Source: Agrocybe praecox (taxonomy: Eukaryota > Basidiomycota > Agaricomycetes > Agaricales > Agrocybaceae). From it: a DNA stretch of 64,000 bases. The notes under the pieces were generated by a model. It worked only from the letters and a program-made list of their open reading frames with translations, was not told where the DNA came from and did no database searches. Made by a program: the position numbers and the translations under genes. Numbering within the stretch: the first letter of the stretch is position 1; every line of letters begins with the position of its first letter. Where the stretch lies: the NCBI GenBank assembly GCA_964017145.1, contig OZ024849.1, forward strand, positions 2,108,001 to 2,172,000, given 5' to 3'. Of this stretch, positions 7,881-53,246 are shown in pieces.

Positions 7881-7883
7881 AAA

Positions 7884-21299: not shown

Positions 21300-21336
21300 T
21301 CTCCTCCCTACTGAAACCTTGACTGTCCCCAGTCAT
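21300..21336 (-). repeat. Internal duplicate of the polypurine-tract module, copy 2
   Basis: Same module and same position relative to the LTR as 4248-4283 in copy 1, so the duplication predates both insertions. Confidence 0.6.
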
Positions 21337-24839: not shown

Positions 24840-24857
24840 CCCTCGCGGTGGGCTCCA
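24840..24857 (-). promoter_or_regulatory. Primer-binding site, element copy 2
   Basis: Identical 18 bases to copy 1, again separated from the LTR by AAA. Confidence 0.65.
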
Positions 24858-24860
24858 AAA

Positions 24861-27514: not shown

Positions 27515-27554
27515 CATCAGGAAAAACACTTTACGCCTTTGGAACCTTGAGGAA
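27515..27554 (+). repeat. Left terminal inverted repeat
   Basis: CATCAGGAAAAACACTTT followed by ACGCCTTTGGAACC; pairs with 53246-53207. Confidence 0.85.
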
Positions 27555-27569
27555 CCCCCAGGGTGCTAT

Positions 27570-27595
27570 AAGGCAGTCAAGGCAGTCAAGGCAGC
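27570..27595 (+). repeat. Subterminal AAGGCAGTC array, left end
   Basis: Three tandem copies of AAGGCAGTC; related AAGGC motifs continue to about 27960. Subterminal motif arrays are typical transposase-binding regions of CACTA-like elements. Confidence 0.6.
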
Positions 27596-28083
27596 TTGGA
27601 GTCTAAAATAACCTGGGGGCTATGCCCTAGCCGATATTCATATCCCCGAGGTGTACTAAGGCAATTTAAAATGCGTTGAAGTATAGGTCATCTTTTTTTC
27701 GTCTTAGGTATTGGATGTCACAAATAGACACTTGCTTAGTCTATTCAGCATCAAGGATTAGCTGAGAATACATTTTTGTTAATCAAGAATTTGTAGCCTT
27801 TGTATAGCTAGTAAATAACATAGCGTCTTTGCCCTACTACAGGAAAACATAGAATCTACGAGAACCTCAAATGAGCCAAATAATATCCAAGACCCTTTGA
27901 GTGCAAGTGTATACTCAAGGCCCTTTAAGTCTACTATACGGTAATAGAGCCCTTAGGCGTCCTCAAGCATCCCTCAGATTCAGCGCAAATTTGGGGTTAC
28001 ATAACAAAGGTTTATTAAAAATAGGCTACTATGGCCAGCGGATCAAGAAACAGGCGAGCATTCATACATAAAGAATGATTAAT

Positions 28084-30152
28084 TTAAAGCGACATATTGA
28101 CCACAGATCCAGCACTAGTAATATCTGCATCGGTTGTATTAATGGCGGATGGAGTGGATGGGGCAAGAGGACTGCCAGCAGGTTTGCCAAGGGCCGATTT
28201 TGCAGATGCTTCCAAAAGGTCGAGATCGACACCGTCAAATTCCTCCTCAGGAGAACCAGCTCCACCGCTAGGAGAGGTTTGTGCACTATGGTAAAATTAG
28301 TAACGTTCATGTAGAAAATTTGATTCTCACTTACCGAATTTTGGCATACATGCTCTCTTCAAGGTGGCGTGCATAACTTGGGGACTTGTCCTGAAGAATC
28401 TTGTATGCCTTTGCATGATGAGCGTATCTGTATACCGTAAAAGGTTAAACAGAGATAAAAAAAAAAAAAATTATATTAGCTACCGCTCGCTGCAATTGTC
28501 CTCGCTAAAGTGAATATTGGTCTTGGCTCCTGTTGCCCAGCACCTCAAGCAGTGTTCAATCTGACAAAACAATTAATAAATAAAAAAAGAAAAGGCAAAT
28601 ACGTAGACATACACAAGTGACGGTCAGGATTATGACCCGTGGAAAAATACGCTGTCCAGCCACCATGGCGTTATACGCACCTTGGTCGCTTCTGCTTTTC
28701 CCAAACCACTGTATGCATATGATATGGGCTATGATGGGATGGGAAAAGGGTAGGTGCTTGTTATGTGTTTCATTCTGGTATATATATAAGAAATTAGTAA
28801 AAAGCTTAATAGAAAAAAAGATACTTGCGTCGATGTCAAGCTCGCCAAATTTGAAATGACCAGCTGTGATCAACCATCTGACTTTCTTTTGGATGTTGTT
28901 TGGATCCATGAACTCTCCACCAATCTTATAATAGCTTGAGATATGCTCAGAGGTCTTGAGAGCGAGTGAACTGGTCAGATGGCCCCTTCCATAAGACGCC
29001 TACATGAAACTTAGTCAGTTATTCACTTAAAAATATAAATAATACTGCACATATGTCATCAAGGCCTCCAATGTGTCCTTGTTGTCAGAGTCAGTAAGCC
29101 TTCTCATAATAGCGATCAAGGTGGGCTTGGACGTTGAGGAATCAGCCCTAGCGGCCTGCTTGATCATAGACATGGACTGCTTGTAACGTTCAAGGGCATC
29201 CTTTGGTGGGTAAGCTTCTTCAAGAGCAGCTTGCTGGCGGAAATAGGCCTTTGTGGCTATTGCCAAACGCAAGACTTCCTTGTCAAAGTCGCCCTCGACA
29301 ACCTTGCCTGATCTTGGACGGTCAGCAGTGTTGTCACTAGACATGCGAGCGCGTCTTGCATGTGTTTTCTTTTCAGGTGCTTTTTGCGTGTATATCTAGA
29401 TAATTCCAGTGAGCAGTAGATGTCAAATTAACGAAGGAACATACGCCATTCATGAACAGCTCATTATTTGGTGGACCAGAAGGTAGTGGCTCGTCCTCAA
29501 GCTCTTCATCTTCTTGATTTTCTTCATCTTCGTCTTCCTCAGAGTCAGATTGATGGAAACTCTTTTGGCCGTCAACTGAGCCTGTATCTGAGTACTGATC
29601 AGTGTCATCCTCTCCGTTAAGATCTTTGGCCAAGTCCATTTCTTCATGAGAGAGATTATCGGCTGTACCCCTGCTTTTCTTCTTAGCAGGACCAGAAGCT
29701 TCCTCTTCTTCATCCCCACTAACTTCTGTATTTTCAGTGGCTTTTCGCTTGAGCTTGGGATCTTGATTGTCATCCGATGAATCAGATTCCGAGTCTTGTT
29801 CAAGCATAGAAGCATTGATATCTCGGCTCGCTAGTAGACAGATTGTGTCAATTAAGAGAAGCACACACTATATATACTTACCTTGGTCTGAGGCATTTTT
29901 GGCTTGCTGATGACTTTTTTTTTTTTTGTCAGCAAGAGCGCGCACCAATCTTTCTTCTTCCAGCGTGAGCCCATGTTGGGAAGGTTGTGGTGTTGATGGA
30001 GGTGGAAGAGCTGATTTCTGTTTTGACATAGAACCAGTCATGGTTTTCTTTTTAGAAACAGTATTCTTGCTTGTCTTTTTGACTTTTACCCCTGAAGAAC
30101 GCACAGGCGACTGAGATCCTGAGCGTGCAGAGCGCCTTGTCTGAGATACCAT
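28084..30152 (-). CDS. DUF6532-type protein (transposon cargo)
   Basis: Eight-exon model; exons read 30152-29882, 29830-29445, 29395-29051, 28999 onward and four more to the TAA at 28086-28084. The N-terminal part (about residues 1-90) is strongly basic and Ser-rich, residues about 95-220 are a highly acidic Asp/Glu tract, and the C-terminal half is the folded part. There, AIATKAYFRQQAALEEAYP, ASYGRGHLTSSLALKTSEHI, a KVRWLITAGHFKFGELDID segment, SHPIIAHIICIQWFG and IEHCLRCWATGAKTNIHFSE are the motifs I know from DUF6532 proteins, which are abundant near agaricomycete transposons and of unknown function. One intron (after ELDID) uses a GCAAGT donor. It is tail-to-head with the TET/JBP gene on the same strand. 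Nuclear location is likely from its charge pattern, an inference. Confidence 0.75.
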
Positions 30153-30325
30153 TATTATAAGGAGAGTATGGGGAGAAATAAAGTATAAAGTGAAGAATTT
30201 TAAGTAGTCGACAGCGAGGTTGAACTTGAAAGGAGCAGGCATAAACTTGTTTCAGGTTCAAATCATGTACAAACAAAAAAATCCAAAATAACAAAGCAAA
30301 ATATAATTTATTCGAGAGACTTATA

Positions 30326-33300
30326 TCAGGCATTCAGATTGACAAAATACATATTATCGGCCCAACCATTGAACTTCTCCTTGATCCAGGACTCCGCTTC
30401 TTTATCAGCATGAAAAACTAATGATGCGCGTAAACCATTGAAGGGCTGGTTTAAGTGGCTAACCTTGTGCGATCTGAAAAGCATGTAGTCACCGTTTCTT
30501 CCTTTGATTGACAGTCCATATTCGTAGAAAGAAGTTGCACCTCCAATACATTCAGAGATGACAAGAACACCGCATACATGCCAGTCATTCCAGTCCCTGT
30601 GGATGCCAGTCATGCAGTTGAGATTGATAACGAGGCTTGAGAAAGGTTCCATGGGCGCTATTTCATTGTCGGGAAGAGAATCAACATATTCCTGCAGGGT
30701 TTCGGTGACATCAGGAAGGAGGTGTTCCATCTGAATATACGGTCAGGAGAAAAATTGTCATACATCAAGATAGACATACCTCTACTTTCTGCCACTCGAG
30801 AACGTCTACAAAGGCAGAACAAAGCTGGTTGTACTCATCGACGTTGGCGTTCAGCTCTTTAGAGCCACGAGGAATAAACAAATAAGGATTTGGAGCATTT
30901 TTGGCACGTTGGTGTATCAGTTGAGTGGGATGAATATCAGTTGGAGCATCTGTGCCCTTGACAGAAAAATTAAGATTTGACAAAAATAATATATGCATAA
31001 CCTCAATTTCACCTTTGCAGAGAAACGATTATAGAGGCTGCAGTGGATACTCTTGTATCGATAGCCCAGATCAGCAGTAAAAGTGTTTGTATCTGTAAAC
31101 ACAGAAGGCCATACTGCCTGAAGATCGCCGACGAGATTTTCACGCAAGTAATCTGGCATAGATGTATCAAGGATTATTATGAAGTTACCATTTTTGTCGT
31201 TTATACGGAGGTCCATATCTCTATACAAGACAAGTTCAATACTATCATTGGTGAACATATAATGCTTACTTCTCTAAGATTGCAGGATCAAGGCAGATAT
31301 ACCTATCCTCCTCCATTTTTCCCGATTTGAGTTGATCAACGAGCATCTTCTCAAATTCAGCCAAAGACTTTGGTGTTTCACCCCTTTCTACCAAGTCCCG
31401 CTGTTTAGCAGTGAATTGGAGACCTTGTAACATATTTCCACGTTCGAGAGGGTAAGACTTGTTCTGGGGCAAATCCGGATCATATGCAGTGTTGATGATA
31501 TGAAGTTTGCGGTTTTGACGTTCATAAACTTTCTGACATGGCAAAAGAGGAAGCTGACGAGGTGGGGGCGAGTATGAGTCATCATCATCATTCCGTTTAG
31601 AACCCACATCAAATTTGAGAGGCGTAAGAGAGTGAAGTAAAGGAGTAAAAGAAGAGAGAGGGCCTGCCAATGGTGATGATGCACGAAGGGTAGGAGATGA
31701 AGCTGAAGAAGACGCATATGATCTGAAGGATGTGGATCTTTGGAAATTTATTGGAAGTAAAAGTGGATCGAGATCGTCTAACCCTTTTTCAAGATCGGGC
31801 ATAGTGTAGAGAGGCGGAAAACATGAAGCCCAGGCGTCTCTGTTTCGTGATTTTGGGTCTTTGATAAATGAGCTATGTTCACGTTTAGTGAAATTCAGCC
31901 TTTATTCTGGTGAGTGACTTACTTATCATGAAAAGAGGCAAAGTAGGCTTGTGATGCAACAAAGTCTTGACAGTCGACTGTTGATGAACAGCCGAAGTCT
32001 TGCTGAAGTTTAAGAGAGAGGTGCGTGTCTATAGTCATTGGCCACGTTTCTCTCAGATATGATATCCAAGGGATAATTGTATCGTAAACCTTTCTTCCAA
32101 TACGCTGCTCTGATTTATTTATTTAAGCATGCTAATATTTCATAGAAAATGTTTGCACTTACTCTGATCAGGATTCATAATGATATCGGCCAGACGGTCA
32201 ATGCCACTTGCAGTATCTCTCACGATTGCGGTCTTGGAACTTGATGCAGCGAGCAGTAGCAAGAAATACACGCTTCCTATGCAAGTATTTAATAAAGATT
32301 TGTTTTCAATCAAAATAAACAAAATACCTGCTTCTGCAAGTTTGGCGAAGTGCAGGGCTGCTTTCCGGTCTGCTTTGAATGTATCGAAGGAACGTATTTC
32401 TTTAGACTTAGTGTCTATTCCTGCATTTGTCATGTTCCATATTTGCTCGCGATTAAACTTCATCTGGCGTAAGCTACACAAGAAAGCATAAGTCAAGAAT
32501 AATTTCAAAAACAAAGAATAACGCACCTTCGAATCTTTGCCTCTAACTGAATAAGAGAAATCATAGACATAAAAAGGTTCACAACCTCATTTCCCTTGTG
32601 CTGCACATAACGTTTGGTCAACTCTGCAACGGTGGCACCATTTTCACAGAGTCCTCCTTCCTGGGTGGGTACGACACCCTTGAGTGCTGATTGAAAACTT
32701 TGAATAAAATTTTCGTTTAGAAGGAAATCCAACGACTTCTTCTTGCATATATCAAACGACACTTTGATCATTAGTGGTGATAAATTTTCCTCTTGAGTTG
32801 GAAGAGGAAGGTCCTGTTGCTCGATCCACGGTCCCCTGTTGCCTCGTGTGATAGGAGCAATATCCTCCTCTTCAGCCTCATTTTCTACCTCTCTTTCTCC
32901 AGCTTCCTCCTCCTCCTCCTCCTCCTCCTCCTCCTCCTCTTCATGATCTTCAGCCCCACCTCCCGTCTCCCTTCCTTCCTCTCCCTCTTCCCCGTCTCTC
33001 TCCCCATCTCTCTCCCTCTCACTAGGCCCTTCTTCCTCCTGCTCCTCTGATCCAGCCTCTTCCTCACTGTTTTCACTATCTGTATCCACGCCGCGTTCGT
33101 TTTCTAGCCTCTCCTCGTGTTCCTCCTGCTCATGCTGCATGGCAATTGCTCTAACTTGATTCCGCCTTGCGCGTCTAAGTTCCTCGCAGTTTCTGTTAAC
33201 TCCTAGTAGAAAATTCACTACTTGAGGTTGAGCATTGCCGCCATTCCCGTGTCCACCCCCACGTCCACCGTTTGGCCTGTGACCATGACCGCGCCCACTA

Positions 33301-33686
33301 TTTTGACCACGTTGCTCAGCTTGATTGATTGAATATAAGTTTATTTCAATATCAACGAATAAGCTAAACATACCTTGATCTGCTGCAGGGTGCATGGTTT
33401 CGGTTGCTTCAACCAGACTATCCAAGACACCAACAATTTCTTCTTCTTGATCTTCAGTCAAATCTTCATTTTGACGATGGCCAGATACAGCTGCAATGAC
33501 CATACTAAGCTGGGCTTCTGTGAGTAAGACATGGTGCATGCTGAAGCAAATAGAGATAGATTTCGCAGTGTAGAAGGTAATACTACTACAGTGTTGGTTA
33601 AGTACAAGATGCAAGTGTCGTGCATCATGCCTTCCGCAAGGCAACTCATGACAAAGTCGCACAGGTGATCTATCTATATTTGGCAT
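30326..33686 (-). CDS. TET/JBP-family 2-oxoglutarate/Fe(II) dioxygenase with long N-terminal extension
   Basis: Nine exons (33686-33374, 33319-32527, 32473-32328, 32276-32163, 32109-31923, 31872-31270, 31220-31013, 30956-30780, 30730-30326) join in phase to 981 residues. The C-terminal domain has the HxD iron motif in GIHRDWND (His about 891, Asp about 893), GVLVISE and GGATSFYEYGLSI strands, a distal His in KVSHLN (about 939) and the 2-oxoglutarate Arg in GLRASLVF (about 948), so it should be active. Family role: oxidation of methylated pyrimidines in DNA or RNA. Ahead of it are a Gly/Arg stretch (GRGHGHRPNGGRGGGHGNGG), a long Glu run, and about 350 residues of unknown fold. The start and first intron are uncertain; a split into two genes near 31802 is the main alternative, but the splice between the two parts keeps frame. 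Confidence 0.75.
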
Positions 33687-33764
33687 ATCTCTGGTTTATT
33701 ATAGCACTCGAGATTCGGAATGATAATTGGCGTTAGCGAGTCTTCAATATTGATTTTGATTCCT

Positions 33765-33907
33765 GGGAAGCAGAAGCGGAGGCGGAAATGGATGAAAGAT
33801 AGTGTCATGGTTGAGATATCGCATACATTTGATTTGGGAAGTGGAAGTGGAGGCGGAAATGGGTGAAAGATAGTGTTGTGGTTGAGATATCGCATACATT
33901 TGATTTG
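33765..33907. repeat. Two tandem units of 71 bp
   Basis: Each unit begins GGGAAG..GAAG.GGAGGCGGAAATGG and ends GATATCGCATACATTTGATTT. It lies about 80 bp upstream of the TET/JBP start, so it may be promoter sequence. Confidence 0.8.
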
Positions 33908-34269
33908 GGTGCAGAGTGATGGCTGCTCGAGATTCACAAATCGGCCTACCAGGTTTGCGTACTAGTGAGGGTAAGCACAGGTTTTGGCTTGATATCTTTA
34001 TTCAGGGAGTTATAGAACAGGTATAGCTTGATTACAATATACATACTGAGAAAGTCCTTCATGTCCTCACTCCTGCAAGTCCAACCACCTCCGGTTATGA
34101 ATTCAAATAATTGTGGTATGTCTATCGTCGTTCTATGCACTAAATGTGTTGAAGGCAAGAGTGTTAAGTAGTTTGCACACAGTGTGTTGAGCTTCGAGAT
34201 AGGGCAAGGATCGTGTGTTGCGTAGGTGTTGCAACCAGTGGAAGACGCGGAGATGTGTGACTTGTTGAC

Positions 34270-34309
34270 GTGACAGAAATTGGGTAGGTACCTACCCAAT
34301 CTCTGTCAC
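34270..34309. promoter_or_regulatory. 40-bp palindrome centred on GGTACC (left copy)
   Basis: The two arms GTGACAGAAATTGGGTAGGT pair with one mismatch. Near-identical to the 42-bp perfect palindrome at 45828-45869. It lies between the TET/JBP gene and the mosaic block. Confidence 0.85.
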
Positions 34310-34949
34310 AGCCAATACAACTCCAAAGTAATTCTATTCGATAATGGAAAGACTGCGATTATGAAACAGTTTTAAAAGAAGGAAAAGATAATAGAGAGGT
34401 TAAAGAAAAAAATGAAAGTAGCAAAACATTCAGTCCAATGCAAGTGGGAAAAAAAAAGAGCGAGGTAGTACATACATGTGCTGGCCGTATATGATGCGTG
34501 AATAATTACGATTATTGATAACGAAGCCCATGCCACACCACATTTCTTGGCAAACAGAGCGTGCAAGTAAGAGTGCGAGAAATATATGACATTAATGCGC
34601 TGGTACAAGATATGATGATAGCGATATGACCAATGAACGAACAGCGCAATATAAAACCTGTTCAAACGACGACGACAATGACAAACACAACGACAGTATA
34701 TGGGGATCAGCGGTAGACGACGAATGAAAACGACGAACGAGCGCGGGACTAGGTGTGGGTCATGGACACATCAGTGGCGTCTTCCTAGAAACTAAACAAT
34801 GTTCTAATAGAAAACAAAGTTGGCTGGAAATCGTAGACAAGTAGAAAAAGGAAAACGTACCCAAACCCAAACCCAGACGATACCGATCCATCCACCGCTG
34901 ATAGCACAGATATTTGTGAAGCCCCAATCACTGTAAGCATGCCAATCCT

Positions 34950-36695
34950 CATCAACAGCAGATTATCTGCGCTGTCACCAAGGTACCCGGCAGGAGGCGC
35001 AAACGCCTCATTACCATGTGTATAATCCGCCCCATCGTCCAGAATGGCATCATCGTCCATCTCGCCTGCGCCGCCCTCCCTCGACCCCATGGTGTCTTTC
35101 TCCCGCGCACATAGAGCGTCTTCAACCATCTTCCATGCTGAATACCCTAGCCAAATCATGCGGTGTCCAACAATGAAATCGGTCCCTTCAACCCACCCAT
35201 TCGCACGAGCGCATTGGACGATCCTCTCCTCTTCTGAACCTCTCATCGTGGGCACATCGATCGCAGAACTCGGCTTGATCGAAGTGGGCGATATAATCGA
35301 TGCTCTTCTTCGCGACGATATCTGGTAAAAGAAGACTGTGAATTTGTCCTTTAACTCGTCTCTTGTCGAACGAGTTGGCAGAGAAGGAGTCGTTAGGTTG
35401 GACACATGTGACGGTCCATAGTCTTGTACAATCAAGAGATGCGAAAATCTCCGAGAGGGTAAAGTTGATTTGGGCTGTTACAGGGTATGTCTTGGAAGGA
35501 TCCAATCGTGGGTGTTTGTCTTCCGCCGCAGGAGCAGTGTTGTTGACAGACAAAATTGTGGAAGGCTTGCTCAAAGGCCTTGCGGAAACTTGTGCCTGGA
35601 CGACTATAGACTCGTCTTTACTGTGCTTCTCGGCTGCTAAACTAGGACCAGACAGGAGCTTCGAAACGAAGGAGTCTGAAGAGCCGCGCAAGAGCGTGAC
35701 GAATGCAGAGTCAACCAGACCCGTGTCCTTCTCCACAAAGTTAGACGCATCGTAATAAGCGGCACCTGAATAGTGGTTAATTCCAAACAGCCTCCTATCA
35801 GCGGCACCTCCTGTACTGGGGCTGGCAATGAAAGAGGAATGAACTCCGTATTTTGATGCGAGTTCTTGCAACAGCTCATCGTCGTCCCGCTACTCGCTAC
35901 TCTTGCCGGACTTGAACAAAGAGCAAGCTTTGAAATGCCGTCAGCATTTCGTCGGCAAAGTTCACACAAAACTCGTCGAATGTGTTCTGACCATATGCAG
36001 AGATAAGAGGCTGGTTTCCTGAGAGCGACATGGACGTCGTTCCTGATGGGCCGCGAGTGTGGTAGCCTGGTTGATCGACCAAGACAATTTGGATAGGCGA
36101 CAATGGGTCCGACGCGTTCGGTGCCAGATGGTGGTTACACGTTTCTGTGACGAATGCGAACAGAATTGCATACAAATCCCTAACGAACCCATCTCGCTGC
36201 TTTGCGCTCTGATCTTTGATGAGGAGCACAGTATAGAGTTCCTTGCGCACATAACTCGTCTTGTTCGTCAATATTGAGCCCAACTCCTCAGTGGGTACGC
36301 CCAAGAGCCTCGAAACTTGGTCCAAAACATGCACGTCGGCGACATGCGCTGAAATGTTGTGCGCATCGCCTTCTGCCAATTCAATATTTCTGAGGAAAAG
36401 GATAGCGACAATGAGACTAAAAATAGAGGTCATGTTTTTAAGCTTGAAGCCCAGAGTTCGCATGGCAGCGCACAGGTCGGCCATTGCAATGGAGGCGTCA
36501 CTGAATGGGCCTGAAGGGAGGCGAGCAAGGTCTAGTCAGAGGGATCCTCAAGGTTGAATGCATCCCGTTCCGCAGGAGTCGCACCAGCAAGGAATTGGTA
36601 AAAATCGCGGTAAGATCTTTCTTCATGCGTCAGCTTGTTCAGCCGGGATTTGTCCAGTCAAGAACTTTGGCTGCACTGATACGTCCGTTGTCGGC
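34950..36695 (-). pseudogene. Fragment of a myosin-motor chitin synthase (class V/VII type), broken
   Basis: In order: GRISAAKVL, LDKSRLNKL, YRDFYQFLAGATPAERD, SIAMADLCAAMRTLGF, VSRLLGVPTEELGSILTNKT, FGINHYSGAAYYD, LWTVTCVQPND, IDYIAHFDQAEF, SEEERIVQCARANGWVEGTD and SADNLLLMR. These belong to the second half of the myosin-like motor that precedes the catalytic GT2 domain in these enzymes. The N-terminal half of the motor and the whole catalytic domain are missing. Lesions: frame change after AAKVL (about 36660), TAG at 36532-36534 followed by a small deletion, and a frame change near 35250. The fragment abuts the acetyltransferase piece within one codon run. Confidence 0.75.
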
Positions 36696-37435
36696 CTTGG
36701 TCATCGCAGGCTCATACGTCCACTCCACTCTTCCATACAACCCAAAATACGTCATCTGGAATGCCATCTGGACATACGCATCGGGGCTGAACCCATGGCT
36801 CGTGATGAAATTCTTGCCGTACCCCTTGAACTCCAACGCTTACAGGTCATTCTGGCATATTACATCACTGATCCTAGTCTCTGCGAACTGTACGCCAGCG
36901 CGTAGTTTGGGCGTGAGGTGCCATTCTAGCTTCTTTGGCGTGGTGTCGATCTTCTCGATTGGTGATGGGGGTTCTGAAGAGGTAAAGAGGGATTAGTTGA
37001 TGTAAATAATGACAACAAGTAGCGATTGTGACTGACTCTGTTGACCCCTTGGAGCCTTGTATGCCTTTGCGTGAGAACAAGCGGTGCGTGGAAAAGGGTA
37101 GGTGCAGAAGGATTGATTGAACGAGCGAGTAACATGAGACCCTCCGCAAAGATGTCCGCTGCGAATCTGATATCACGCATGAATATTATCATTCATAATA
37201 AGAGAGACGACAAGTTGACGAACCTCGGGACAGTGTACCCATCCACACCGGTATGTTCGAAACTGACCCCAGCTGCTCCGTCCGTGCAGACAATGGTTTG
37301 AAGCTAGAAGAACATTCAAGTTAACAAATAGATTTCAACGCCCGTAATAACAACACCAAACTCGCTCACCTTGTCGTACCATCTATTTGTGCATGTCCCG
37401 ACCTGCTCTCCATCCTTTAGACCATATGTCCCACA
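36696..37435 (-). pseudogene. Fragment of carnitine O-acetyltransferase, truncated
   Basis: Exons read YGLKDGEQVGTCTNRWYDK, then IVCTDGAAGVSFEHTGVDG (containing the family's catalytic His), RFAADIFAEGLMLLARSINPS, RLQGVNR, and EFKGYGKNFITSHGFSPDAY with QMAFQMTYF. Spacing and splice sites still look host-like, but both the N-terminal third and everything after TYEPAMTK are absent, where chitin-synthase sequence begins. The parental enzymes move acetyl groups between CoA and carnitine in mitochondria or peroxisomes. This piece cannot make an enzyme. Confidence 0.72.
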
Positions 37436-37449
37436 AAGGAAATTGCTAC

Positions 37450-38520
37450 ATAGATCCACCAGGCTCTCTGGTCGATCCACGCTTGAACACATCGACACCC
37501 CTAGCGGGGTCCCAGACACAAGTACCCTTCCTAATAGGCAAAGGAACAGCTTGCCCATCAACAGGTAACACTGGACCTATAGAAGACAAAGGAGAACCAA
37601 GGGACGAATCGTTCGACACCCAACGTGTTATAGAAGCAGGTGAGAATCGAGCTGATTGCTTGGTAACAGACTCAGGAACATGCGGTGCTATCACTGGAGA
37701 TGCAGATAAAGGTGCAGGTGAAGACGTGGGCTGCTCTGCAGGGATCAATCCTGTCGTGGGTGAATTAGAAGTGCGAACAGTAGGTTTGACCTTGCTGGTA
37801 CTGATAGTGGATGGTGCGATTTTGGGAGAAGGCTGTGGGAGGAGGCTCTACAGCAGGATTCCATGACATCATCGGAGTAGAAGCAGGATGCATTCGAGGT
37901 TCCTCAGCATGCTGTTTCTGGAGACCATGAACAGGAGATTCGCGAGGGTGAAGGTGATTTCCAGGAGCAGTAGGTTCGTGATGGTGATGGTGATGATGGT
38001 GTGGGTAATGTATGCTATCGAGGTCCATCGTTTTGCAAAGCAGCATGACGAGAAATAGGGGTAGAGAATCCAAAGGATTCGGATGGTAAACGATCTGAAT
38101 CGTCTGTGGGTTGACTATATGCATTCTGATCCCGCTGTTGCTGACTGACTTGCGAGACATTGGTGGGAATTTGCTCCGCTTTTCTTGGACGCATAAGATC
38201 AACGCGACCCTGGAGTGGTAAACTTTTATATGCGCCCTCGCCTGGTCTACTATTCTCATAAGAAGCATTCAGGCCTCGAATGGCCAGATGCTTGAGTTTG
38301 TCGGGTCTAGAGGCGGAGCAGAAGGCAAGGGGTCCATAGAAGATTCCCAAGCAGGAGTATAGTGCTTGACTTCGAACGGCGCTTGAGGAATATAGACATT
38401 GTAATGACGATCGTACACGTCCAACCATCGATCCACGAGAGAGTCATAGTCATAAGCAGTTTGTATGGATTTGGAAGGATGATGAGAGGTGGGTGTACGA
38501 TATCCAATGGATTTCTAAGG
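37450..38520 (-). pseudogene. Unrecognised Ser/Pro-rich gene fragment
   Basis: Several overlapping frames on minus each carry protein-like stretches, such as IQTAYDYDSLVDRWLDVYDR followed by YNVYIPQAPFEVKHYTPAWE (about 38470-38350), a GLNASYENSRPGEG segment (about 38270) and an HHHHHHHHE run (about 37990). The frames do not join cleanly. Likely a third host fragment; family unknown. Confidence 0.4.
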
Positions 38521-38851
38521 TTTATTGGGGGCCATGAAATGGATTGCCTTTATTTGAGAACCATAAATGATAACGAGTGTAACGGAGGGACTATTTACAT
38601 CTATTTGGCAACGCCTTCGGTCCTGCCAGTCTTACACCCATCGATTAGATGGTTAGAGTCCTTAGTTCTTTGTTTACCTAGCTACGCTACCCATATAGAC
38701 GTGGTCAGGCTTAGCCTTGCGTGAACGTAAGAACTACCCACCGTAAAGCCCAGCTTTACACTTTTTTAAGCCCACCCGCTATACAAAATAGCAAAACTAT
38801 AGCTCTTACAAGCTCTTCCTATTCTTATCGATACCGAATTACCAAACCACG

Positions 38852-40657
38852 ATGGATCGACCTCGACCAAGCGACAACTCAGGACACACTGCGATGACCC
38901 CCGACCCAGGCCCCTAAGGATCAGGGCTATCACCCAGGGGACTACTACCTGCGGCCATGCGCGCACCGTCGGTCACTGGGATGGGTGAGGGCATTGACCG
39001 GGACTTGATGAGTCACGGCACTGAGAGGAGCGAGCGACAGGGGATGGAACAGTCACCAACTTACGTCGTGGAAGGTACAGCGCCGCTCAGAGCGAAAGGA
39101 GAGGCAGAAAGTCCGGGTGGTGAGTACTTCATGTCAATGGTTGACGAAGGAGCTATCGAGTATGAAGCAACGGATCCAAGGCGATGTTGACATCCGACTA
39201 GTGCATTTGTGGACGATGTACGGCGTGGAAAGGGAGTATCGTAGGAGAATGATCAAAGAAAACGCGGAGCAGTGTGTACTCCGCGCCTTGGAATACGGGA
39301 ACCAATACTTAAGTACCCAATCTGAAGAATATATGGAATTAATAATTGCAACTGCGATGGCAGCTGCTAGAATATATAAAGAAAAGAGAATGAACAAGCC
39401 TGATAGTAGGCTTGACACACCCATGTCCCAAGTATTTGCCAATAGTTTGCAGATGGCAGGAGAACATTCGACACCTGCACGATCCCTGTCTAATAGGGCT
39501 CGACGTGTTGAGTTCAATACCTCACAGAATATAGAAAGGGCCATGGCTTCGTTGGAATTGCTGCGCCAAGAAAGCGAGACCGACGAGCAGTATGCCCGTC
39601 GTCAAGCGGCTGTATACAGTACAACGGATGCGCCCCGAAAGGCATGATATACAATTATCATCACACAATAATGATAATATAGTCGTAAAAGAACAATCCA
39701 CGACAGATTCAATGTCAGCGAGACTGGGAAATCACCCGAACGTAACGTTGCGGGCGAGTAAATTTAACGATCGCGTTGCATATCAACGGATGAGAGAAGA
39801 TGACTTACGAAATCATGGAACCTCGACTATCGAGGACCAAGGAATTGTGTTCGATGGGCATATACCAAGGGAAGCAGAGTCACAGATGCCCACCGGAGCA
39901 ATGTTGTTTGCTCCACCTATGATAACGCAGGCAACAGTTGCAGATATCCCTATCAAAGATGACCCAATCGTATCGCAAATATCGAATATGGCACGAGTAA
40001 ATGCGAACCACAAACAGAAATCGGTGAATAACATAGCTCATGCACAGCGTCTGCGCACACCCACCACGTATGTGACACACGCCGGTGCGAGAGCGGAGTC
40101 GCGGATACTCCATGCCACGGACAATACCCGTGAGTAGACACGGAGAGGCATTACCTGGAATACCAGAAGCATCAAGTAATCACCAGAAAGAAATGAAAGA
40201 GAGACTCGGCAAACTCATACATGAGAACCTGAGCGTGCGGATGGAATACCCATGCGGATTCAAGTTCAATCAGAAAATTGAGGCCAACAATAATGAGAAG
40301 TAAGGCGGATCGTCGAAGTTCGCTGACCTAGAAAAATGGCTGTCGGACCTATGTTATAAATTATGCAGTACGACAGCTGGGAGGACCCGAGCTAAACAGA
40401 ATGAGAAAAATATTACTATTGGAACATTTAGACGGCGAAGCAAAAAGTGGTTTACACGACACGTAATGAGCACTGAACGGTCCAGGAATGATTGGACCTT
40501 TGAATCAGTGATACTCGAGTTGTACAGCAGATTCGTACACCCTTCGAGTATGCAAGATGCTTGCGAAGGATTCCGTAAAGCAAAATATTCCACAGCTACT
40601 GGAGTACAGGGATTCTACGATACTATACTGGATTATCGACCGAATGTTCAGGACTGA
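38852..40657 (+). pseudogene. Relic of a Ty3/Gypsy-type gag gene
   Basis: From an ATG at 38852 (MDRPRPSDNSG) several frames must be joined: YFMSMVDEGAIEYEATDP, then EYMELIIATAMAAARIYKEK with SRLDTPMSQ and ARRVEFNTSQNIERAMA, then LRASKFNDRVAYQRM, then FADLEKWLSDL, LLLEHLDGEAKKWFTRHVM and YSRFVHPSSMQDACEGF. This is a gag family of agaricomycete Gypsy elements, different from the gag at 5.7 and 22.7 kb. At least three frame changes and a stop after DYRPNVQD show it is dead; no protease or polymerase follows. Sequence just upstream (38600-38850) may be the end of its LTR and leader. Confidence 0.65.
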
Positions 40658-45500: not shown

Positions 45501-45827
45501 TGATGCCCTTGATGCTGTCCTATGAGTGCCCAGCTGTGGCTGCTTGGGGTTTGGATGTGAGATTGTGATTATGAAGGCGTAGGTGTAGGTGGCTTTGAAG
45601 CAGTTGGTGTTGAAGGCCACACATCCACCGCACAGCTGACAGAGCAGGAGACGAAGAGATGATGCTCAAAGTATTGAAATTTGATAGCAGGACATGGCGT
45701 GGATGTAGCAATCAAGCTATGTATAGGAGTCAGAAAGACAATAAGCCCTGATGGTGGTGGATCAAAAGAAGTGTGTCTAGTAAAGACAAGTTATAGATAA
45801 GATAGAGCAGGATAGCACGATGGTAAG

Positions 45828-45869
45828 TGTGACAAAATTTGGGTAGGTACCTACCCAAATTTTGTCACA
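45828..45869. promoter_or_regulatory. 42-bp perfect palindrome centred on GGTACC (right copy)
   Basis: Arms TGTGACAAAATTTGGGTAGGT pair without a mismatch and without a loop. It lies 87 bp upstream of the start of the next plus-strand gene. The core GGGTAGGTACCTACCC is shared with 34282-34297. Confidence 0.92.
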
Positions 45870-45956
45870 ATGTATAGTCGTCAGTAAAAGTTCACAAAGC
45901 AGCCCACATCAAAGTTGCTGCAACCAAAAACTTCACACCTTTCTCTGTATTAAATC

Positions 45957-46372
45957 ATGTCAATTACGGAGTACACTTCTATGTATACAGAAAATCACAT
46001 CAGAGTTTCCGAGAAAAAGGTAAACCAGATTCATTTGCCTTTCAGAATCTAAATGGGCGGGAAACTGACCATATTTGCTTTTTTTAGTTATTACTTTCAC
46101 TAGTCGCTGACGCTCACACCATTCCTCAGCAAGACTCTGGAGCAAAGTCAGCAATAGAGTCTGTGGCTGTTCATTCCAAATCACCGGAGGCTTTACCATC
46201 AATACCTGCCAAGTTGTCACTGAAGTTAGACGATACTCATCAAGCACGCTATATCCCTACTTCTGCTCCCATGACACCAATGTTATTCGTAAATCCTGAA
46301 ATTCAAGATTGGGATGCAGTAGATTGGGGATCTGCTGATGACTGGAGCTTTTGGGATAAATTCAGGAAGTGA
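45957..46372 (+). CDS. Small acidic hypothetical protein (transposon cargo)
   Basis: Two exons, 45957-46022 or so and about 46088-46372, joined in frame across a GTAAAC...TTTTTAG intron; about 115 residues. It ends with a Trp/Asp-rich motif (DWDAVDWGSADDWSFWDKF). No family recognised. Start chosen at the first ATG after the palindrome. Confidence 0.55.
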
Positions 46373-46576
46373 CCTTAGACCTTGCTTAGACCTGAGTAGT
46401 ATTGGTGTTTATCAAGCGTTTATAGTAGAATTATGATTTCAAGTTTGTAGATGCTAAATACTCTGGGTCGTCCAAATACAGGCCTAGCTTTCTCCAAGTT
46501 TCTTTTTGATCACAAGTATAAGTAATTGAGCATAAAGAACAGAGTTTTTGGGATATCTACCTAATCTCTTGCACAA

Positions 46577-47071
46577 TCAATGATTGCCATCGCCCTCATC
46601 ATCACTGACGAGATTGATAGGATTGAATGTAGACCCCCCTGGTGCCCTCACCAAGAAAAATCTCCTAACGCATGCCTTACACAATTGGATATCGCCATCC
46701 TCCTCTTCAATTTCTGGTGTTATCTGAATCCAATTTGGGCCGTTCTCATTGCCATCACCACAGTGAGCCAATATGACATCGTTGAAAAGAGGGTGGAAAA
46801 TGATAAGATCTGGGCGATCAGAAACCTCCTTCCAAATGTGCTCTGTGTCGCTCCCCTTCTTTGCCGCTCTATAGAAGATCTTTTCTCCCTCTGATATAAT
46901 GTACAAGTCTCCAATTTGGAAATGATGCGCGCTCAAGGATAATGGAAGAACCTCCTTTACATAGTGCATTTTGTAGTTGTGAATAGATTGTTCGCCATTT
47001 TTTGTGTGAGCAAAACATTTGAGTTTGTGGCGACCATTAAAATGAAAAGAAATGTATGGATTTTCAGCCAT
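46577..47071 (-). CDS. Hypothetical protein, 164 residues (transposon cargo)
   Basis: Single exon starting MAENPYISFHFNGRHKLKCF. Mixed alpha/beta composition with an IGDLYIISEGEKIFYRA segment and an acidic end (LVSDDEGDGNH). No family recognised. Divergent from the gene at 47220 with a 148-bp intergenic space containing CATGACTAAATTTTGG, a possible degenerate half of the palindrome. Confidence 0.55.
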   Translation of the reverse strand: MAENPYISFHFNGRHKLKCFAHTKNGEQSIHNYKMHYVKEVLPLSLSAHHFQIGDLYIISEGEKIFYRAAKKGSDTEHIWKEVSDRPDLIIFHPLFNDVILAHCGDGNENGPNWIQITPEIEEEDGDIQLCKACVRRFFLVRAPGGSTFNPINLVSDDEGDGNH

Positions 47072-47219
47072 TTTGATGAGGAATGAGTATTGTAACCTGC
47101 TATCTGGTGTAGTTTTGGGCGTATCTTAATCACATGACTAAATTTTGGTAAACCCAAGTTCGCTGTCCTCTCTCACAAACATCTTACAGCACAAAGATTG
47201 TTTAGTACTAAATTCATTC

Positions 47220-48130
47220 ATGCCACTTACATATACCCAAATACCTCCTCTTTCAACTGAAATTATAGAGTCCTCAGTCGAATATGAAAGATTTGAATAC
47301 AAAAATCTTTTGGATGTATGATTATTTTATTTATAAAATATTCGATGACGACTAATCAGCTCTTTGTAGAAAGATAAAATACCTCAGCATCATGCTTTTT
47401 TGTTATCTCAGGACTCGCCACCCACTTTGAAATCACCTCAGCTTTCAGAAGAAATATTAAATGAAGCCAAAGCTGAACACGAGATCAGACACCGAAAAGA
47501 CTGCTCAAAATCATACTTACGTATTTGCTGTCAATGCACGGAGGATCATTTATCAGCATCTGGGGATGAGGAAAATACAGACAGTCCTGCTTGTTGCTAT
47601 TGTCAATGCCCAGGGTGTTGCTGTGAAAGCTGCATGAACGAACAGGCCAGAATGAATCTCAAAGTTAATTCAGCAAGCCTAAAGAGTCCGTCAACAGACT
47701 ATGCGCAACGCCAGCCTTCTTACTTTGAGGACAATGACTATGAGGATGATTCCCAGGTCAGATTTTATTAAACATCTACTCCATATTAACTAATGATTTT
47801 TTTAAAATCAAGATAATGCTTCGTACCCCACAAGAAGAAGCGCCCAAGGATCTACATGGGGATACACCTTTGTTAATAGAGGCGTCTTCTGACGAGGATT
47901 TTATTAAAGAAACATTATCAACACATAAGCCTGTGGCTTCCAATAATAAGCGGAAAAGAGGTCTTAGTGACACCGACGTGGAAGAGCTCAAAAAGCGAAT
48001 AAATATAAATATGGAAAATCATATACTGGTTACTGAACAGATTAGAAATTTGAACATGCGTAGAGAATCCCTTTTTAAAGAGCAACAGTATCTAGTATCC
48101 AAACTTTTGGACAGATTCTCTTCTGAATGA
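47220..48130 (+). CDS. Cysteine-cluster protein with C-terminal coiled coil (transposon cargo)
   Basis: Three exons: from 47220 to the donor after NLLD, an exon from about 47411 to 47755, and an exon to the TGA at 48130. The middle has a dense cysteine cluster (ICCQCTEDHL... then ACCYCQCPGCCCESC), about 11 Cys in some 45 residues, likely to bind zinc. The C-terminal part (ELKKRININMENHILVTEQI) is helical and probably coiled coil, preceded by a basic KRKRG. No family recognised; zinc binding is inferred. Confidence 0.6.
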
Positions 48131-48153
48131 TAGTCGTATTAATCTGCATTAAT

Positions 48154-48880
48154 CTACTCTATGTCTACCCATAAATTCCATTCTAATGCATTACATAGTT
48201 CTCGCTCTGCTAATGCTATTTGACCAACTAAAATCCCAGAAAGCTTGGCCCATGAAATGTTAGTATAACAACAATCTTCACAAAATTTCCATGCTACCAT
48301 CAATACCGCAATAAAGGCATGCCATGGGCAGAGAAGAGGGGATAAGGGATTTTTCTCAAATATTTCGGGGAGTACCAAGTAAAGACGCTTGATGTAAATC
48401 ATAGCTACTTTTAAATGAGCGATTGTTGAGTGCGATTGGATAAGAACATGAGAAAGGTAGTTTTTCAAATAAGAAATGGTGAGTTTGGAGGTACCAGGTG
48501 GTTGACTCCATGGTGTCGGTGGTAAAATGAATATTTCAGGAATATAAAAAGGATCCCATAGTGCCGCAAAAAGATTAACTGTATCATCTGTAGATTAATT
48601 AGTATTATTCATGTACATTTCATTTTCTGTATACCTATCAATCCCAGCAGATATTGTGATGTTGCAACACAAGATATTCGAGTCGAATCTGCATGGTAGC
48701 AGCATTGACGCTGCCAATTTCCTTGACGTGCATTATGCCAAAATCCTTGGTCAAGGCTTTTTGTATTTAATATATGAACAGAACATAGTATTTCAAAAGA
48801 TAAGTACCTCATGATATAGACTTTAAATTTTCTCAACACTGCCTGTAAATACAAGAGCGGATGCTTTGAATACACTCATA
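48154..48880 (-). CDS. Cyclin-box protein, Pho80/PCL-like (transposon cargo)
   Basis: The main exon (about 48591-48154) carries the cyclin-box signature in order: an STIAHLKVAMIYIKRLY helix, HAFIAVLMVAWKFCEDCCYT, NISWAKLSGILV, then IALAERELCNALEWNLWVD. Such proteins bind and activate cyclin-dependent kinases. An upstream exon ending SQYLLGLI joins in phase across a GTATAC...CTACAG intron. The first exon probably starts at the ATG at 48880 (MSVFKASAL), but its junction is unresolved. It sits 23 bp from the third palindrome. The conserved Lys and Glu of the box (WKFCED) are present. Confidence 0.62.
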
Positions 48881-48902
48881 TCCTAGATCACGTGATAAAA
48901 AA

Positions 48903-48920
48903 TGGGTAGCTACCTACCCA
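48903..48920. promoter_or_regulatory. Short palindrome TGGGTAG-CTAC-CTACCCA
   Basis: Seven-base arms with a 4-base spacer, same GGGTAG arm as the two long palindromes but without the outer arms. It lies between the divergent starts of the cyclin-box gene (48880) and the gene at 49210; CACGTG is 12 bp away. Confidence 0.65.
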
Positions 48921-49209
48921 CTTTCATATACGCTCTTTCATACGTCCCAGCATAAAATAGTCTTTATTTCTATGCATCTAATTTTTTCCCCTTCATATGA
49001 TGTCTTCAAACTACTGCTTATTCTTTTCCAAGCAAGTATGTGTCCGACCACTAACTGGTTTCCAACGTGGCATCACACACGACACACACGATGCAGATTG
49101 TTCTTTGAGTCTTTTCCATTTACAATTCCTGAGAAAGAGTTTACGTGAAACTGGCTACTCTGGTTGAGATGTTTATCAATCTTTCTTTTTAACTTTATTA
49201 TACCCAAAT

Positions 49210-49732
49210 ATGCCTGATTTCTTCCCTTGGAATAACAAAGGTGAGTAGTATTGCTGTCGTTGTCTAATTATCTTCAAGAATTTCTGTATACTTACTATAC
49301 CGGTACATTAGATGCTGCTTATAATACCCTATACCCTACTGCAAATGTTGGACACACTGCTATTTGGGTTAAAAAGGGAGACATAGTTGCGCCTCACGAT
49401 CAAGAACTCCTGGATGCACTTCGCACAATCAAACACCATCGAAAGTCACGTAGTAAGTGTCTCTGCTTTTTGTTTACTCAAGTCAATGCTCACAAAGTCA
49501 TATTTAGACTACAAATTGACCCAAATTCTTACTATTGGTGGAGTAACCGTTATTGACATATGGAAGGATCTTAATGGTGCGTCGACAATAGGTCGTTTAT
49601 ACTTGTATGCTAATTTATTATACAGAATGGGTTCAAAGGGTGATCGGGGCAAACCAGCGCATAGAGCTTCCATTTGTATTAATGGTCCATACCACATCCT
49701 ACGAACCTCTGGAGAAAATTGACAATGTCTAA
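49210..49732 (+). CDS. Small hypothetical protein (transposon cargo)
   Basis: Four exons with in-phase junctions give about 115 residues from MPDFFPWNNK through HTAIWVKKGDIVAPHDQELL, LTQILTIGGVTVIDIWKDL, to the end EKIDNV. No family recognised. It lies directly upstream of and on the same strand as the transposase. Confidence 0.55.
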
Positions 49733-49828
49733 TTTTGTATTGTTCTGTGCTGAATAATATTGACGTTTATCGACTGCTCTCTATTTATGGGTTAAGGACA
49801 CCATCTTTTTCCCTTTGAAACATTGATA

Positions 49829-52800
49829 ATGCCTCTGCAGCCAAATACATGCCCAATATGCCTCAAGACACTACCGACAGTCAAGGGAATGAACTTACAC
49901 ATTCGAAACAGTCAGGTTTGTCGAAATTGGGGAAAGGCAAAACGTGTAGAGATCTTCAAGGAAATGTTGGAAGACGAAAGCAGTGATATCAGCATGGACA
50001 ACAATGAGGCCTACTCAGAAGATGAATTCAGTCGCCTTGCTACTCCTTTGGTATCACGGCCTTCAACACCACGGCTTGACGAAGAGGCTATTACTGCTCA
50101 AACATTAAAGCGCATCCTTCAAGACATCGAAGAGGTAGAGGATGATGATCCTGGGCACTTTCTTGAAACTCCAGAAGATGTAGAAGAGGTAGAAGTTGGA
50201 GGGGCTGGGCCTGGACCATCAACGCAAGCAAATCGAGGAGGTCAAAGCCAAGGCCCTGATCGAGAGCAAAATGAGGATGACCGAGTTTACATTGACTACG
50301 ATGGGGCAGGACAGGTGCTTGGGATCGATCAGCAAATTCACGAAAAGTGGAAACATTTTTTCCATTCCAATTCCATCAACAGTGATAAAGAGACGAGTGA
50401 AGATAAAATCCCAAGTTTTTATGCTCCTTTTACTAGCGAGATGGACTGGAGAGTCGCACGATGGGTCGTAAAGGATAGAATAGGCCACAAGTCATTCGAC
50501 AGGCTGTTATCAATTCCTGGGGTGTGTTTCCTATTCTTGCTCTGATAACTATTCATTGACAACAGTCCTTTAGGTTAAAGAGAAGCTGGGACTATCATAC
50601 AATAATATACGCAGCCTGCATCAAGTTATTGACAATAACATCCCCGAACGCGCTGGCACATGGAAAGTCGAGGATTTATTCTTCAAAGATATGCCCGATA
50701 TGGCCCATACTATGCGCTACAGAGATCCAATTGAGGCTATCAAAAGCCTGTGGGGTGATCCTTCACTTTCGTCTTGCTTAACCTATCGTCCGCAAAAGAT
50801 TTTCAAGACCAAAGAAAAGGAAGAGAGAATTTATACTGAGCTATGGACAGGTCAATGGTGGCATGCTGTTCAGGTGCGTTTGTATTCTTTTTCTATTTTA
50901 TTCCATTTCTTATAAGGAGTTTAGAGCAAGTTACCCATAGGTGCTACAGTCGCACCCATAATTATTGCCACAGACAAGACCCAGCTCACAAACTTTTCTG
51001 GCGGCAAAAGTGCATATCCTGTATATCTCACGCTAGGAAATATTCCAAAGTCCATTCGAAGAAAGCCATCAAAGCGCGCATGTGTCTTGATTGCCTATCT
51101 ACCAGTCGACTCATCTACCAAGTTAAAAGGAACAACTTTAAAACAGAAGGAAGTTAAAATACGGAATCAACGCATTTTCCATGAGGCTATGCGCTTTCTT
51201 CTTGGCCCCTTGATTGAAGCAGGCAAGAAAGGTGTTCATATGACTGGAGGAAACGGAGAAGTTAGAAACGTACATCCCATTCTTTTTTGTTATATTGCCG
51301 ACTTTCCAGAACAGTGCCTTGTCGCATGCACTAAATATGGAACCTGCCCAAAATGCCAGTCTCCTGCAAAGGATCTCGCCAATCCCATTCCTGGTGACCC
51401 TCGCACACGAACATGGACATTAGATGTAATTAATAGTGCCAAGCAGACATCTATGACAGAGAACCAATTCTATGCAAAATGCATGGAAAAGGACGTGTCA
51501 GGATGTGTTTATGACCCATTCTGGAAGGACTTTCCATTTTGCGATATTCACAAATCCATTACCCCAGATGTTCTTCACCAATTATACCAAGGCGTTCTCA
51601 AGCACATAATCACCTGGTGTCAGACACTAATGACTCCAGAGGAACTTGATGCCCGTTTACGTGTTCTTCCTCCTGCATACGGAGTACGTCATTTCAAAAA
51701 TGGATTCTCAGCACTCAGCCAAATATCTGGCCCTGAACGCAAGAACATGGCAAAGGTCCTGCTTGGGTGCTTGGTTGGCAGCCTGGCTAAACCTGGAATC
51801 CGTGCTGTTAGGGGATTGCTGGATTTTATCTACCTTGCACAATACAAGTCACACGACGACACCACTCTGAGCTATCTCCAAGACGCACTTGATAAGTTCC
51901 AACAGAATAAGGATTTTTTTATCAAGACTGGCATCCGCCTTGACCTCAATATCCCTAAATTCCACTCCTTACTCCACTATATTGAATCCATTAAGCTTTT
52001 TGGCACAACCGACAATTACAACACAGAGGCATTTGAAAGATTTCATATTGATTTTGCCAAGGAGGGATGGCGAGCATCTAATCGAAGAGATGAATTCCCT
52101 CAAATGATCAACTGGCTATCCCGACAAGAAAAAGTATCCATGTTCGACAACTATCTTGAGTCAATTGACTCAGAAGAAAGACCTCCAACAGAATTAAATG
52201 AACGGCCAATCATTAAAATCGCCAAGTATCCACCATATCCAGGGCGTCTTATCACTCAAATTGAGCAGGAGTATGGAGTACCACTATTCTCTCAACATCT
52301 GAAGGAATATCTCAATCGACTTCTTGCTAAAGATTCTCGCACATCAAGTGCGGTAGCACAGCTATATGCACTTCCCTTCGAGCGCCTTGATTGTTACACC
52401 CAGTTCAAGTTTCATCCTAACAGCCTTCTTGATGACTATGACCATCAGGACATTGAAGAAAATGACACAGTTAAAGCCATTCCTCAATCGTACAAAACCC
52501 CAGGTGGACGCATGGATACTGTTATTGTTAACATGGATAATGAGGTTGATAATGTTGGCATTGAAAGTGAGTAGATTATATTTTTACTTAATATCTACTC
52601 ATAAGCCAATCTCAACTTAGACACGCGTGTTGCAAGACTCCGTGTAATTTTCAAGCTACCTACAACTGTTGACGTTGGATTTGGCAAGCACGCGGGGCCT
52701 AAAGACTGGCCAAAAACAGAATTAGCATATATTGAATGGTATGCACCCTTTAAGCATGATCCAGATGAGGCAAGTGGTATGTTCACAGTGAAGCGACTAA

Positions 52801-52988
52801 AAGAGCCATCTTTTACTATTATTCCTCTTACTTCAATACGACAAGGTTGTATGTTAATTCCTAAATTCTCTGACAAATCTTTTCATATTATAGAAAATAC
52901 CCTTAAGTCCCAGGATGTATTAGATACTGTTTCTGTCTTTTTACTTAATAATTGGCAAAGCGCCTATGCTTACCAGACACTGTATTAG
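49829..52988 (+). CDS. Plavaka-type transposase, copy 1 (intact)
   Basis: Exons 49829-50521, 50574-50873, 50925-52566, 52621-52988 join to 1000 residues. The N-terminus has a zinc finger (CPICLK...LHIRNSQVC). Then come an acidic linker, the WRVARWVVKDRIGH region, EERIYTELWTGQWW, the RNase H-fold strand IIIATDKTQL (candidate catalytic Asp about 347), YLTLGNIPKSIRRKP, a second Cys pair (CPKCQSP), TPDVLHQLYQGVLKHI, GVRHFKNGFSALSQISG, HSLLHYIESIKLFGTTDNYN and TEAFERFHIDFAKEGWRASN. I recognise this as the Plavaka group of fungal transposases, related to the CACTA/CMC lineage. No lesion seen. It lies 220 bp inside the right terminal repeat. Confidence 0.88.
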
Positions 52989-53086
52989 AATAAATATAAT
53001 AGCTTTTCAATAAATCCATAAGCAAACTGAAGGGCATGTCAAGATGCCTTGAAGGCATTACAAGAGCATAAAAGGTATGTAACATC

Positions 53087-53120
53087 AATCAAGGCAATTC
53101 AAGGTGTCTCAAGGCTCCTC
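53087..53120 (+). repeat. Subterminal TCAAGGC array, right end
   Basis: TCAAGGCAATTCAAGGTGTCTCAAGGC: three spaced TCAAGG motifs like those at the left end. Confidence 0.55.
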
Positions 53121-53206
53121 AGGGTTCCTCAGGCTCCTTATAGGAGCTGTTGATGCACTCGTGGGAAACCACAATAGTCCTTGTTGATCCTTGTTTATTG
53201 CCATAT

Positions 53207-53246
53207 GTCTTGAGGGTTTCAAAGGCTGAAAGTGTTTTTCCTGATG
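53207..53246 (-). repeat. Right terminal inverted repeat
   Basis: On minus reads CATCAGGAAAAACACTTT then CAGCCTTTGAAACC; partner of 27515-27554. Confidence 0.85.

Follow-up and report, generated by a model that had tools for sequence, protein, structure and literature searches.

We analysed a 64,000-nucleotide stretch of the 59.17-Mb genome of Agrocybe praecox, C10:2108001-2172000, which is called the window here; other loci are likewise named by their contig (C1, C6, C12 etc.). The window contains an element of 25,732 bp (27515-53246) with a Plavaka-type transposase gene near its right end, a TET/JBP-like gene near its left end and a mosaic of pieces copied from other loci between them. It is bounded by an inverted repeat of 39 nucleotides, the left copy being located at 27515-27553 on the plus strand (CATCAGGAAAAACACTTT...) and the right copy at 53208-53246 on the minus strand. 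The two copies are 85% complementary with the outermost 18 nucleotides being perfect, and the ends read CATCA..TGATG. TT flanks the element on either side (27513-27514 and 53247-53248). An earlier interpretation made from the letters of the window alone, the sequence-only reading, had claimed perfect 18-bp inverted ends with TT flanks at precisely these bounds, which was borne out by direct reading. CATCA..TGATG termini and a target duplication of 2-3 bp are marks of PlavakaB, and the element has both.

The 18-mer end with up to three mismatches was present in the window at the two outer places only, while shuffled sequences contained it 0.12 times on average and at least twice in 2 of 100 shuffles. 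The claim of CAAGGC-rich subterminal arrays fared less well. CAAGGC was found three times in each of the terminal 500 bp, 19 times in the interior and 12 times outside of the element; the total of 37 in the window compares with 26.3 (standard deviation 5.1) in shuffles. The arrays are thus weak. With the element removed, the joined flanks held no gene model of at least 80 amino acids spanning the junction. Repeats abound in the left flank (3275-9677 and 19274-26466), among them a pair of 564 bp resembling long terminal repeats (LTRs) with 100% identity and a 1.6-kb direct repeat with 99.9% identity.

The core of the Plavaka transposase together with DUF6830 is located at 50925-52571 on the plus strand and matched PF18759 with 280.4 bits at a cut-off of 26.3. 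The frame is open. Compared to the copy in a sister element on C12 (C12:3176134-3214628, see below) the core showed 24 synonymous and 5 replacement changes, corresponding to a ratio of replacement to synonymous differences per site (pN/pS) of 0.06. The sequence-only reading had proposed an intact transposase, and the open frame is in line with it. The motifs CPKC and HSLLH, recognized by eye in the translation, correspond to C(2)C and H(3-4)H of the CMCT clade. Directly upstream an open reading frame (ORF) at 49829-50545 on the plus strand (pN/pS 0.23) is probably the N-terminal part of the transposase. A cyclin piece at 48157-48594 on the minus strand matched PF08613 with 26.1 bits (cut-off 21). 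Outside of the element, at 61047-62521, the window holds a second, distant Plavaka-like transposase with 29-36% identity in three stretches, one of which contains a stop.

The TET/JBP-bearing gene was taken as one putative multi-exon gene on the minus strand with an approximate extent of 29030-33686 and approximate exon borders. The Tet_JBP-like catalytic exon (30329-30742, minus strand) has a conserved HRD, i.e. HxD, and a conserved distal H, both of which are kept in all seven aligned copies. PF12851 was matched at E<=0.1 by 7 of 7 aligned copies with a best value of 1.4e-6; these matches are not independent because four of the copies had been found via PF12851. The assignment of the exon to TET/JBP is of moderate strength. 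Over the whole gene, seven ORF pieces at 29030-32586 differed from the C12 sister by 70 synonymous and 42 replacement changes (pN/pS 0.17). The sequence-only reading had described an apparently active TET/JBP gene. A putative activity is suggested only by the conserved HxD/H residues and by purifying selection over the whole gene. An adjacent ORF piece at 28559-28999 on the minus strand matched DUF6532 (PF20149, E 1.3e-9).

Two types of TET have been distinguished in these transposons (Kojima 2025, PMC12730594): PE-type TETs with HxE are those associated with Plavaka, and AG-type TETs with HxD and a conserved Asp at position 337 of CcTET are encoded by Kyakuja and Zisupton. HRD in place of HxE was found in all seven aligned copies. 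At the AG-type position, nine residues after the Asp of HxD as located by ungapped count, the window exon (HRDWNDWHVCGV) has V, while C12:2720989 of the same genome (HRDNGSAYQCMD) has D. By the published marks and on the ungapped count the window TET is, as far as its sequence tells, neither of the PE nor of the AG type.

The middle of the element (34.6-45.3 kb) consists for the most part of incomplete copies of loci that lie on other chromosomes, with identities of 89-97% and of 78-91% for the pieces from C6. It holds copies of the donor pieces, not the originals. The series begins with pieces related to C6:836752-837913 (34551-34939, 78-89%), followed by a captured, frame-broken part of a Myosin_head plus Cyt-b5 gene on the minus strand (34941-36692, from C4:555887-557839, 89-93%), a piece on the plus strand from C5:505198-505974 (36694-37472, 92%) and pieces of a Glyco_transf_8 gene on the minus strand (37473-38566, from C1:3036494-3039388, 94-95%). 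A segment of 2.1 kb (38567-40678) separates these from the last piece of the same C1 locus (40679-40967, minus strand, 89%), and the series ends with captured DNA from one locus of a repeated gene cluster on C12 (40968-45335, from C12:2771636-2776382, 95-97%). The long open frame of the C4 source encodes a Myosin_head domain (277.5 bits) and a Cyt-b5 domain, a pair that we take to denote a chitin synthase of the myosin-motor kind. The C1 source opens with a Glyco_transf_8 domain, in our reading that of a glycogenin-like protein. Because DNA related to the C6:834-838 kb locus adjoins the left module in three elements including that of the window, the C6-related piece may be an old capture or a remnant of the element rather than derived from a fresh donor.

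Every captured piece is only a part of its source gene model. Stops or frameshifts were seen in six of eight pieces examined, i.e. both from C4, two of four from C1 and both from C12; C1 pieces a and b had neither. The pN/pS of 0.2-0.5 between pieces and sources fits a constrained source and an unconstrained copy. Thus, the claim of at least six other genes on the element did not hold, and a middle made of intact cargo genes was rejected. At the six junctions inspected, 0-1 bp lay between the pieces; the joins were blunt with no evident microhomology.

A near-perfect palindrome of 41 bp is located near the left edge of the middle (34270-34310) and a second one near the right edge (45828-45868). 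The palindrome reads GTGACA..GGGTAGGTACCTACCC..TGTCAC, and its 20-bp core occurs with up to two mismatches at six sites in the genome. Five of the six belong to the element of the window or to its sister on C12, where a palindrome either lies close to an edge of the middle or separates two captured pieces (also L042:6893, L044:7070 and L045:1144). With this distribution, a role as a family-wide capture device was rejected.

Other loci with the same ends were sought throughout the genome. The 18-bp end with up to three mismatches had 125 matches on the plus and 122 on the minus strand, compared to 39 and 38 for the reversed control, an excess of about 170; 84 places were exact. Thus the other loci with these ends for which the sequence-only reading had called do exist, and they include further giant elements. 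Ends were read for 12 of 26 pairs of TET and transposase (see below), including the window. In 11 elements of 22-38 kb both ends were read, and 9 of 11 had matching 2-bp flanks (8 of 10 outside of the window): TT in the window, TA at C6:503462 and C12:3176134, CA at C8:2937096, TG at C12:2097516, AA at C5:4089451 and C6:3721105, TT at C3:9015 and GA at C5:2411555. Among 12 short end pairings at single loci (138 bp to 1.3 kb) eight had matching 2-bp flanks. Miniature derivatives with the same ends are present as well, e.g. of 138-167 bp and 745-765 bp (C4:541630-541767 and C4:396520-397284). A 5.8-kb end pair on C2 with AA on both sides encloses a TET place that lacks a paired transposase (C2:147732). 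At C208:68400-92089 a 23.7-kb pair of these ends had neither transposase nor TET among the matches listed for the contig; it is perhaps a giant non-autonomous element.

Movement was evident from C8:2937096-2966879 and C12:2097516-2127243. Over the 9.95 kb of middle that was compared, these two copies had 99.4-99.8% identity, and the stretches read just inside the two ends (approximately 105 and 120 bp) were identical; yet the copies reside in unrelated flanks with different duplications (CA versus TG). A unit of about 29.7 kb has moved recently as a whole. Because near-identical copies occupy unrelated flanks, a unit of this family is mobile.

The window element has an outward layout: the transposase, on the plus strand, is close to the right end, and the TET-like exon, on the minus strand, is close to the left end. 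The genome searches listed 89 stretches matching the transposase and 37 matching the TET exon. At 26 of the 37 TET places listed, a Plavaka transposase was present in the same layout within 60 kb when all 89 stretches were used; the pairs spanned 18.7-55.3 kb. Random placement on 11 contigs yielded a mean of 1.1 and a maximum of 5 such pairs in 2000 draws, and shuffling of the TET strand alone yielded a mean of 14 and a maximum of 23. After 38 transposase matches were dropped and two neighbours joined, the remaining 50 gave 26 outward pairs and 5 in another layout. The distance from the TET exon to the end of the element was 2.8-3.1 kb in five elements. The window element belongs to a large family of fixed layout, which the sequence-only reading had missed, as it had the mosaic of captured pieces inside; its claim of a single, very large element of the Plavaka class that has precisely these ends and carries a TET/JBP-like gene was confirmed.

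Comparison of family members revealed which parts are kept. The C12 sister shares 27512-34608 (93%) and 45533-53247 (97%) with the window. We refer to 27515-34608 as the left module and to 45533-53246 as the right module. The element at C6:503462, which is inverted, has in common with the window 27515-29313 (80%), i.e. the outer 1.8 kb of the left module, and 49568-53247 (87.5%), the outer 3.7 kb of the right module. Further likeness to the C6 element is weaker, at the protein level through the TET gene and in a 143-bp stretch (34384-34526). Between the modules the C12 sister contains 23.4 kb of different DNA versus 10.9 kb here, with a single match of 84 bp at 79%. Since pN/pS was 0.06 for the transposase and 0.17 for the TET gene, whereas the middle differs between the sisters, the sequences suggest that selection maintains both genes and that the middle is exchanged. 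The C12 sister also holds a young nested LTR element with LTRs of 99.7% identity. C12:2724067-2777097 is a cluster of repeated loci, one of which is modelled as a long charged low-complexity gene, and the two sister elements each contain captured DNA from neighbouring parts of this cluster.

Samples from the middles of C6:503462, C12:3176134 and the C8 element were mosaics of several loci with identities of about 79-98%. In the C12 sister, one C2 locus is represented by four pieces, which follow each other as 288-762, 1751-4234, 1217-1294 and 1473-1624. In the C8 element a collinear 1.7-kb copy of a source on C10 retains both modelled introns, and capture through RNA was rejected on these grounds. 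Because of the reordered C2 pieces and the retained C10 introns, the sequences point to a middle that arises by DNA copying, more than by deletion alone. A frame in the C8 element (L067:6788-8326) fuses a piece, which we presume to be chitin-synthase-like, to a piece of the C10 gene; according to our home-made gene model this is a possible chimeric gene.

With its two conserved end modules, its replaced middle of partial DNA copies of other loci and its relatives that moved as whole units, the window element is best read as a giant cut-and-paste transposon of the PlavakaB type, with TET near one end and a variable middle of locus copies. We assign this reading a probability of roughly 0.84. 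The Plavaka transposase would excise and insert the whole unit. The TET-like enzyme might oxidize methylcytosine on the element and thereby ease silencing, as proposed for the group by Kojima (PMC12730594). Where breaks or incomplete repair occur inside the element, DNA would be filled in by copying from unrelated loci with hops between templates, such that the middle grows; we infer copying of this kind because the joins are blunt, pieces of one donor are out of order and introns are kept. Captured pieces would then travel and multiply with the element.

Several observations weigh against this reading. The PF12851 match of the window exon has 17.5 bits (E 0.0026) and falls under the cut-off of 34.9, sequence searches of the PDB found no relative, the fold predicted from the single sequence is poor (pLDDT, a confidence score, of 41), and the exon alone differs from the C12 sister by 5 synonymous and 6 replacement changes (ratio 0.31). 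Unequal flanks were present in 2 of the 11 giant elements (C6:922986-952158, CA/TA; C6:2477092-2514271, GG/TG) and in 4 of the 12 short pairings, two of these four being alternative pairings of one right end. The right end of the twelfth giant element, on C13, was not found in the stretch inspected. Eleven of the 37 TET places listed have no transposase in the outward layout, six of these having one in another layout. Of the out-of-order C2 pieces, the two short ones have identities of only 76% over 96 bp and 85% over 161 bp and might come from elsewhere. The search for mosaics covered stretches inside elements only. Finally, the genome searches list best candidates only and donor lists are incomplete: 38567-40678 had no second copy among the matches listed, and the search with the middle of the C8 element omitted the C12 copy that is 99% identical in direct comparison. 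Because that copy went unlisted, absence from a match list is no evidence.

The main rival is the route of plant Pack-CACTA elements, in which copies that have inserted near one another are excised as one hybrid with the intervening host DNA and then recombine with further copies, as described for Pack-CACTA (PMC13317346, PMC8903248). Plavaka transposases are related to EnSpm/CACTA (PMC12730594), overlapping layouts do occur, e.g. C11:1537091-1577246 with a second pair inside, and the sampled middle of C5:4089451 mostly matches other family members and repeats. On the other hand, this route might leave internal remnants of ends, whereas within three mismatches of the 18-mer the window has only the two outer ends, and it does not readily reorder pieces of one locus as seen with those from C2, of which two of four are weak. 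We regard it as unlikely, though as the alternative to be taken most seriously. Far less probable is a transposon-rich island with segmental duplications, in which two unrelated ends face each other by chance: the repeat-rich left flank, the surplus of ends in the genome and the unequal flanks of some pairs would suit it, but the matching flanks of 9 of 11 giant pairs, the fixed layout at 26 of 37 listed places and near-identical copies in unrelated flanks argue against it.

A TET gene that belongs to a nested KDZ (Kyakuja/Zisupton) element was rejected as the least probable alternative, for a profile scan of 122 ORF pieces contained no KDZ transposase family, as the sequence-only reading had held, the flanks are of 2 bp and not 7-8 bp, the TET exon keeps its distance from the element end in five elements, and the window TET lacks the AG-type Asp, whereas C12:2720989 has it; in its favour, TETs of Kyakuja are widespread in Agaricomycotina (PMC12730594) and one ORF piece within 27515-53246 matched CxC2 (PF18803, 'cysteine cluster associated with KDZ', 8.2e-5), though single scans of 43 of the 122 pieces did not locate it.

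Beyond the giant PlavakaB-type transposon itself, we put forward a wider proposal that we consider doubtful, a little more so than the Pack-CACTA route. TET-armed giant Plavaka elements could be the counterpart of giant cargo transposons in mushroom-type fungi, with a repair-driven middle that joins host exons into new combinations and spreads them, sometimes as expressed chimeras, and with the palindromes marking, in the window lineage, the hinge at which copying begins. On the main reading, two subjects so far treated separately meet, transposons with a DNA-demethylating enzyme and transposons that capture and shuffle host genes: one lineage here appears to do both, in elements of 22-38 kb and with about 26 TET-transposase pairs in one genome, so that the role of TET against silencing and the source of fungal gene mosaics are testable together. 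For basidiomycetes, this would add giant mobile elements that form a family distinct from Starships.

Plavaka elements that have CATCA..TGATG ends and carry TET have been published for Agaricus bisporus and Gymnopus confluens (Kojima 2025, PMC12730594). The suggestion that TET/JBP had been taken up by a class other than KDZ is right in that Plavaka carries TET, but it is not new. The window element resembles those TET-bearing PlavakaB elements in its transposase, ends, 2-bp flanks and TET/JBP gene. It differs in that the published Plavaka TET is of the PE type with HxE, while here HxD without the AG-type Asp is found. The main text of PMC12730594 contains neither 'fragment' nor 'cargo' nor 'kbp', and its passages with 'captur' concern TET/JBP genes.

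In Pack-CACTA and Pack-TYPE elements of plants (PMC8903248) pieces of genes have been captured between inverted ends that belong to a related superfamily, and the window element, too, has captured coding DNA between its inverted ends. Yet Pack-TYPE elements are by definition non-autonomous and without transposase, while here an open transposase frame with low pN/pS and TET are kept in elements of 22-38 kb. Transduplication by hAT and Tc1/mariner in Pyrenophora (PMC3538342) and a hAT with histone H3 (PMC6710886) are similar in that fungal DNA transposons multiply a gene. Those elements carry one captured gene in about 2-10 kb, and the portions seen mention neither a multi-locus mosaic nor TET. 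Helitrons of Pleurotus (PMC4289320) are basidiomycete elements with captured gene pieces and reach up to 14 kb in fungi (PMC6431247); they are rolling-circle elements, whereas the window element has inverted ends, duplicated 2-bp flanks and a Plavaka transposase. Starships (PMC12134995) are giant cargo-bearing fungal transposons as well, but are known from Pezizomycotina and are classified by a tyrosine recombinase, in place of which a Plavaka transposase with inverted ends is present here; such a captain was not among the 11 families listed for the 122 ORF pieces. A study of Marasmius oreades (PMC9674265) mentions a library in which elements reach about 42 kb, their class not being given in the text seen. 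Titles and abstract openings of the PMC-held literature searched contained no giant Plavaka elements with multi-locus gene capture. As far as searched, giant multi-locus capture by Plavaka and a TET of the HxD type on Plavaka are new.

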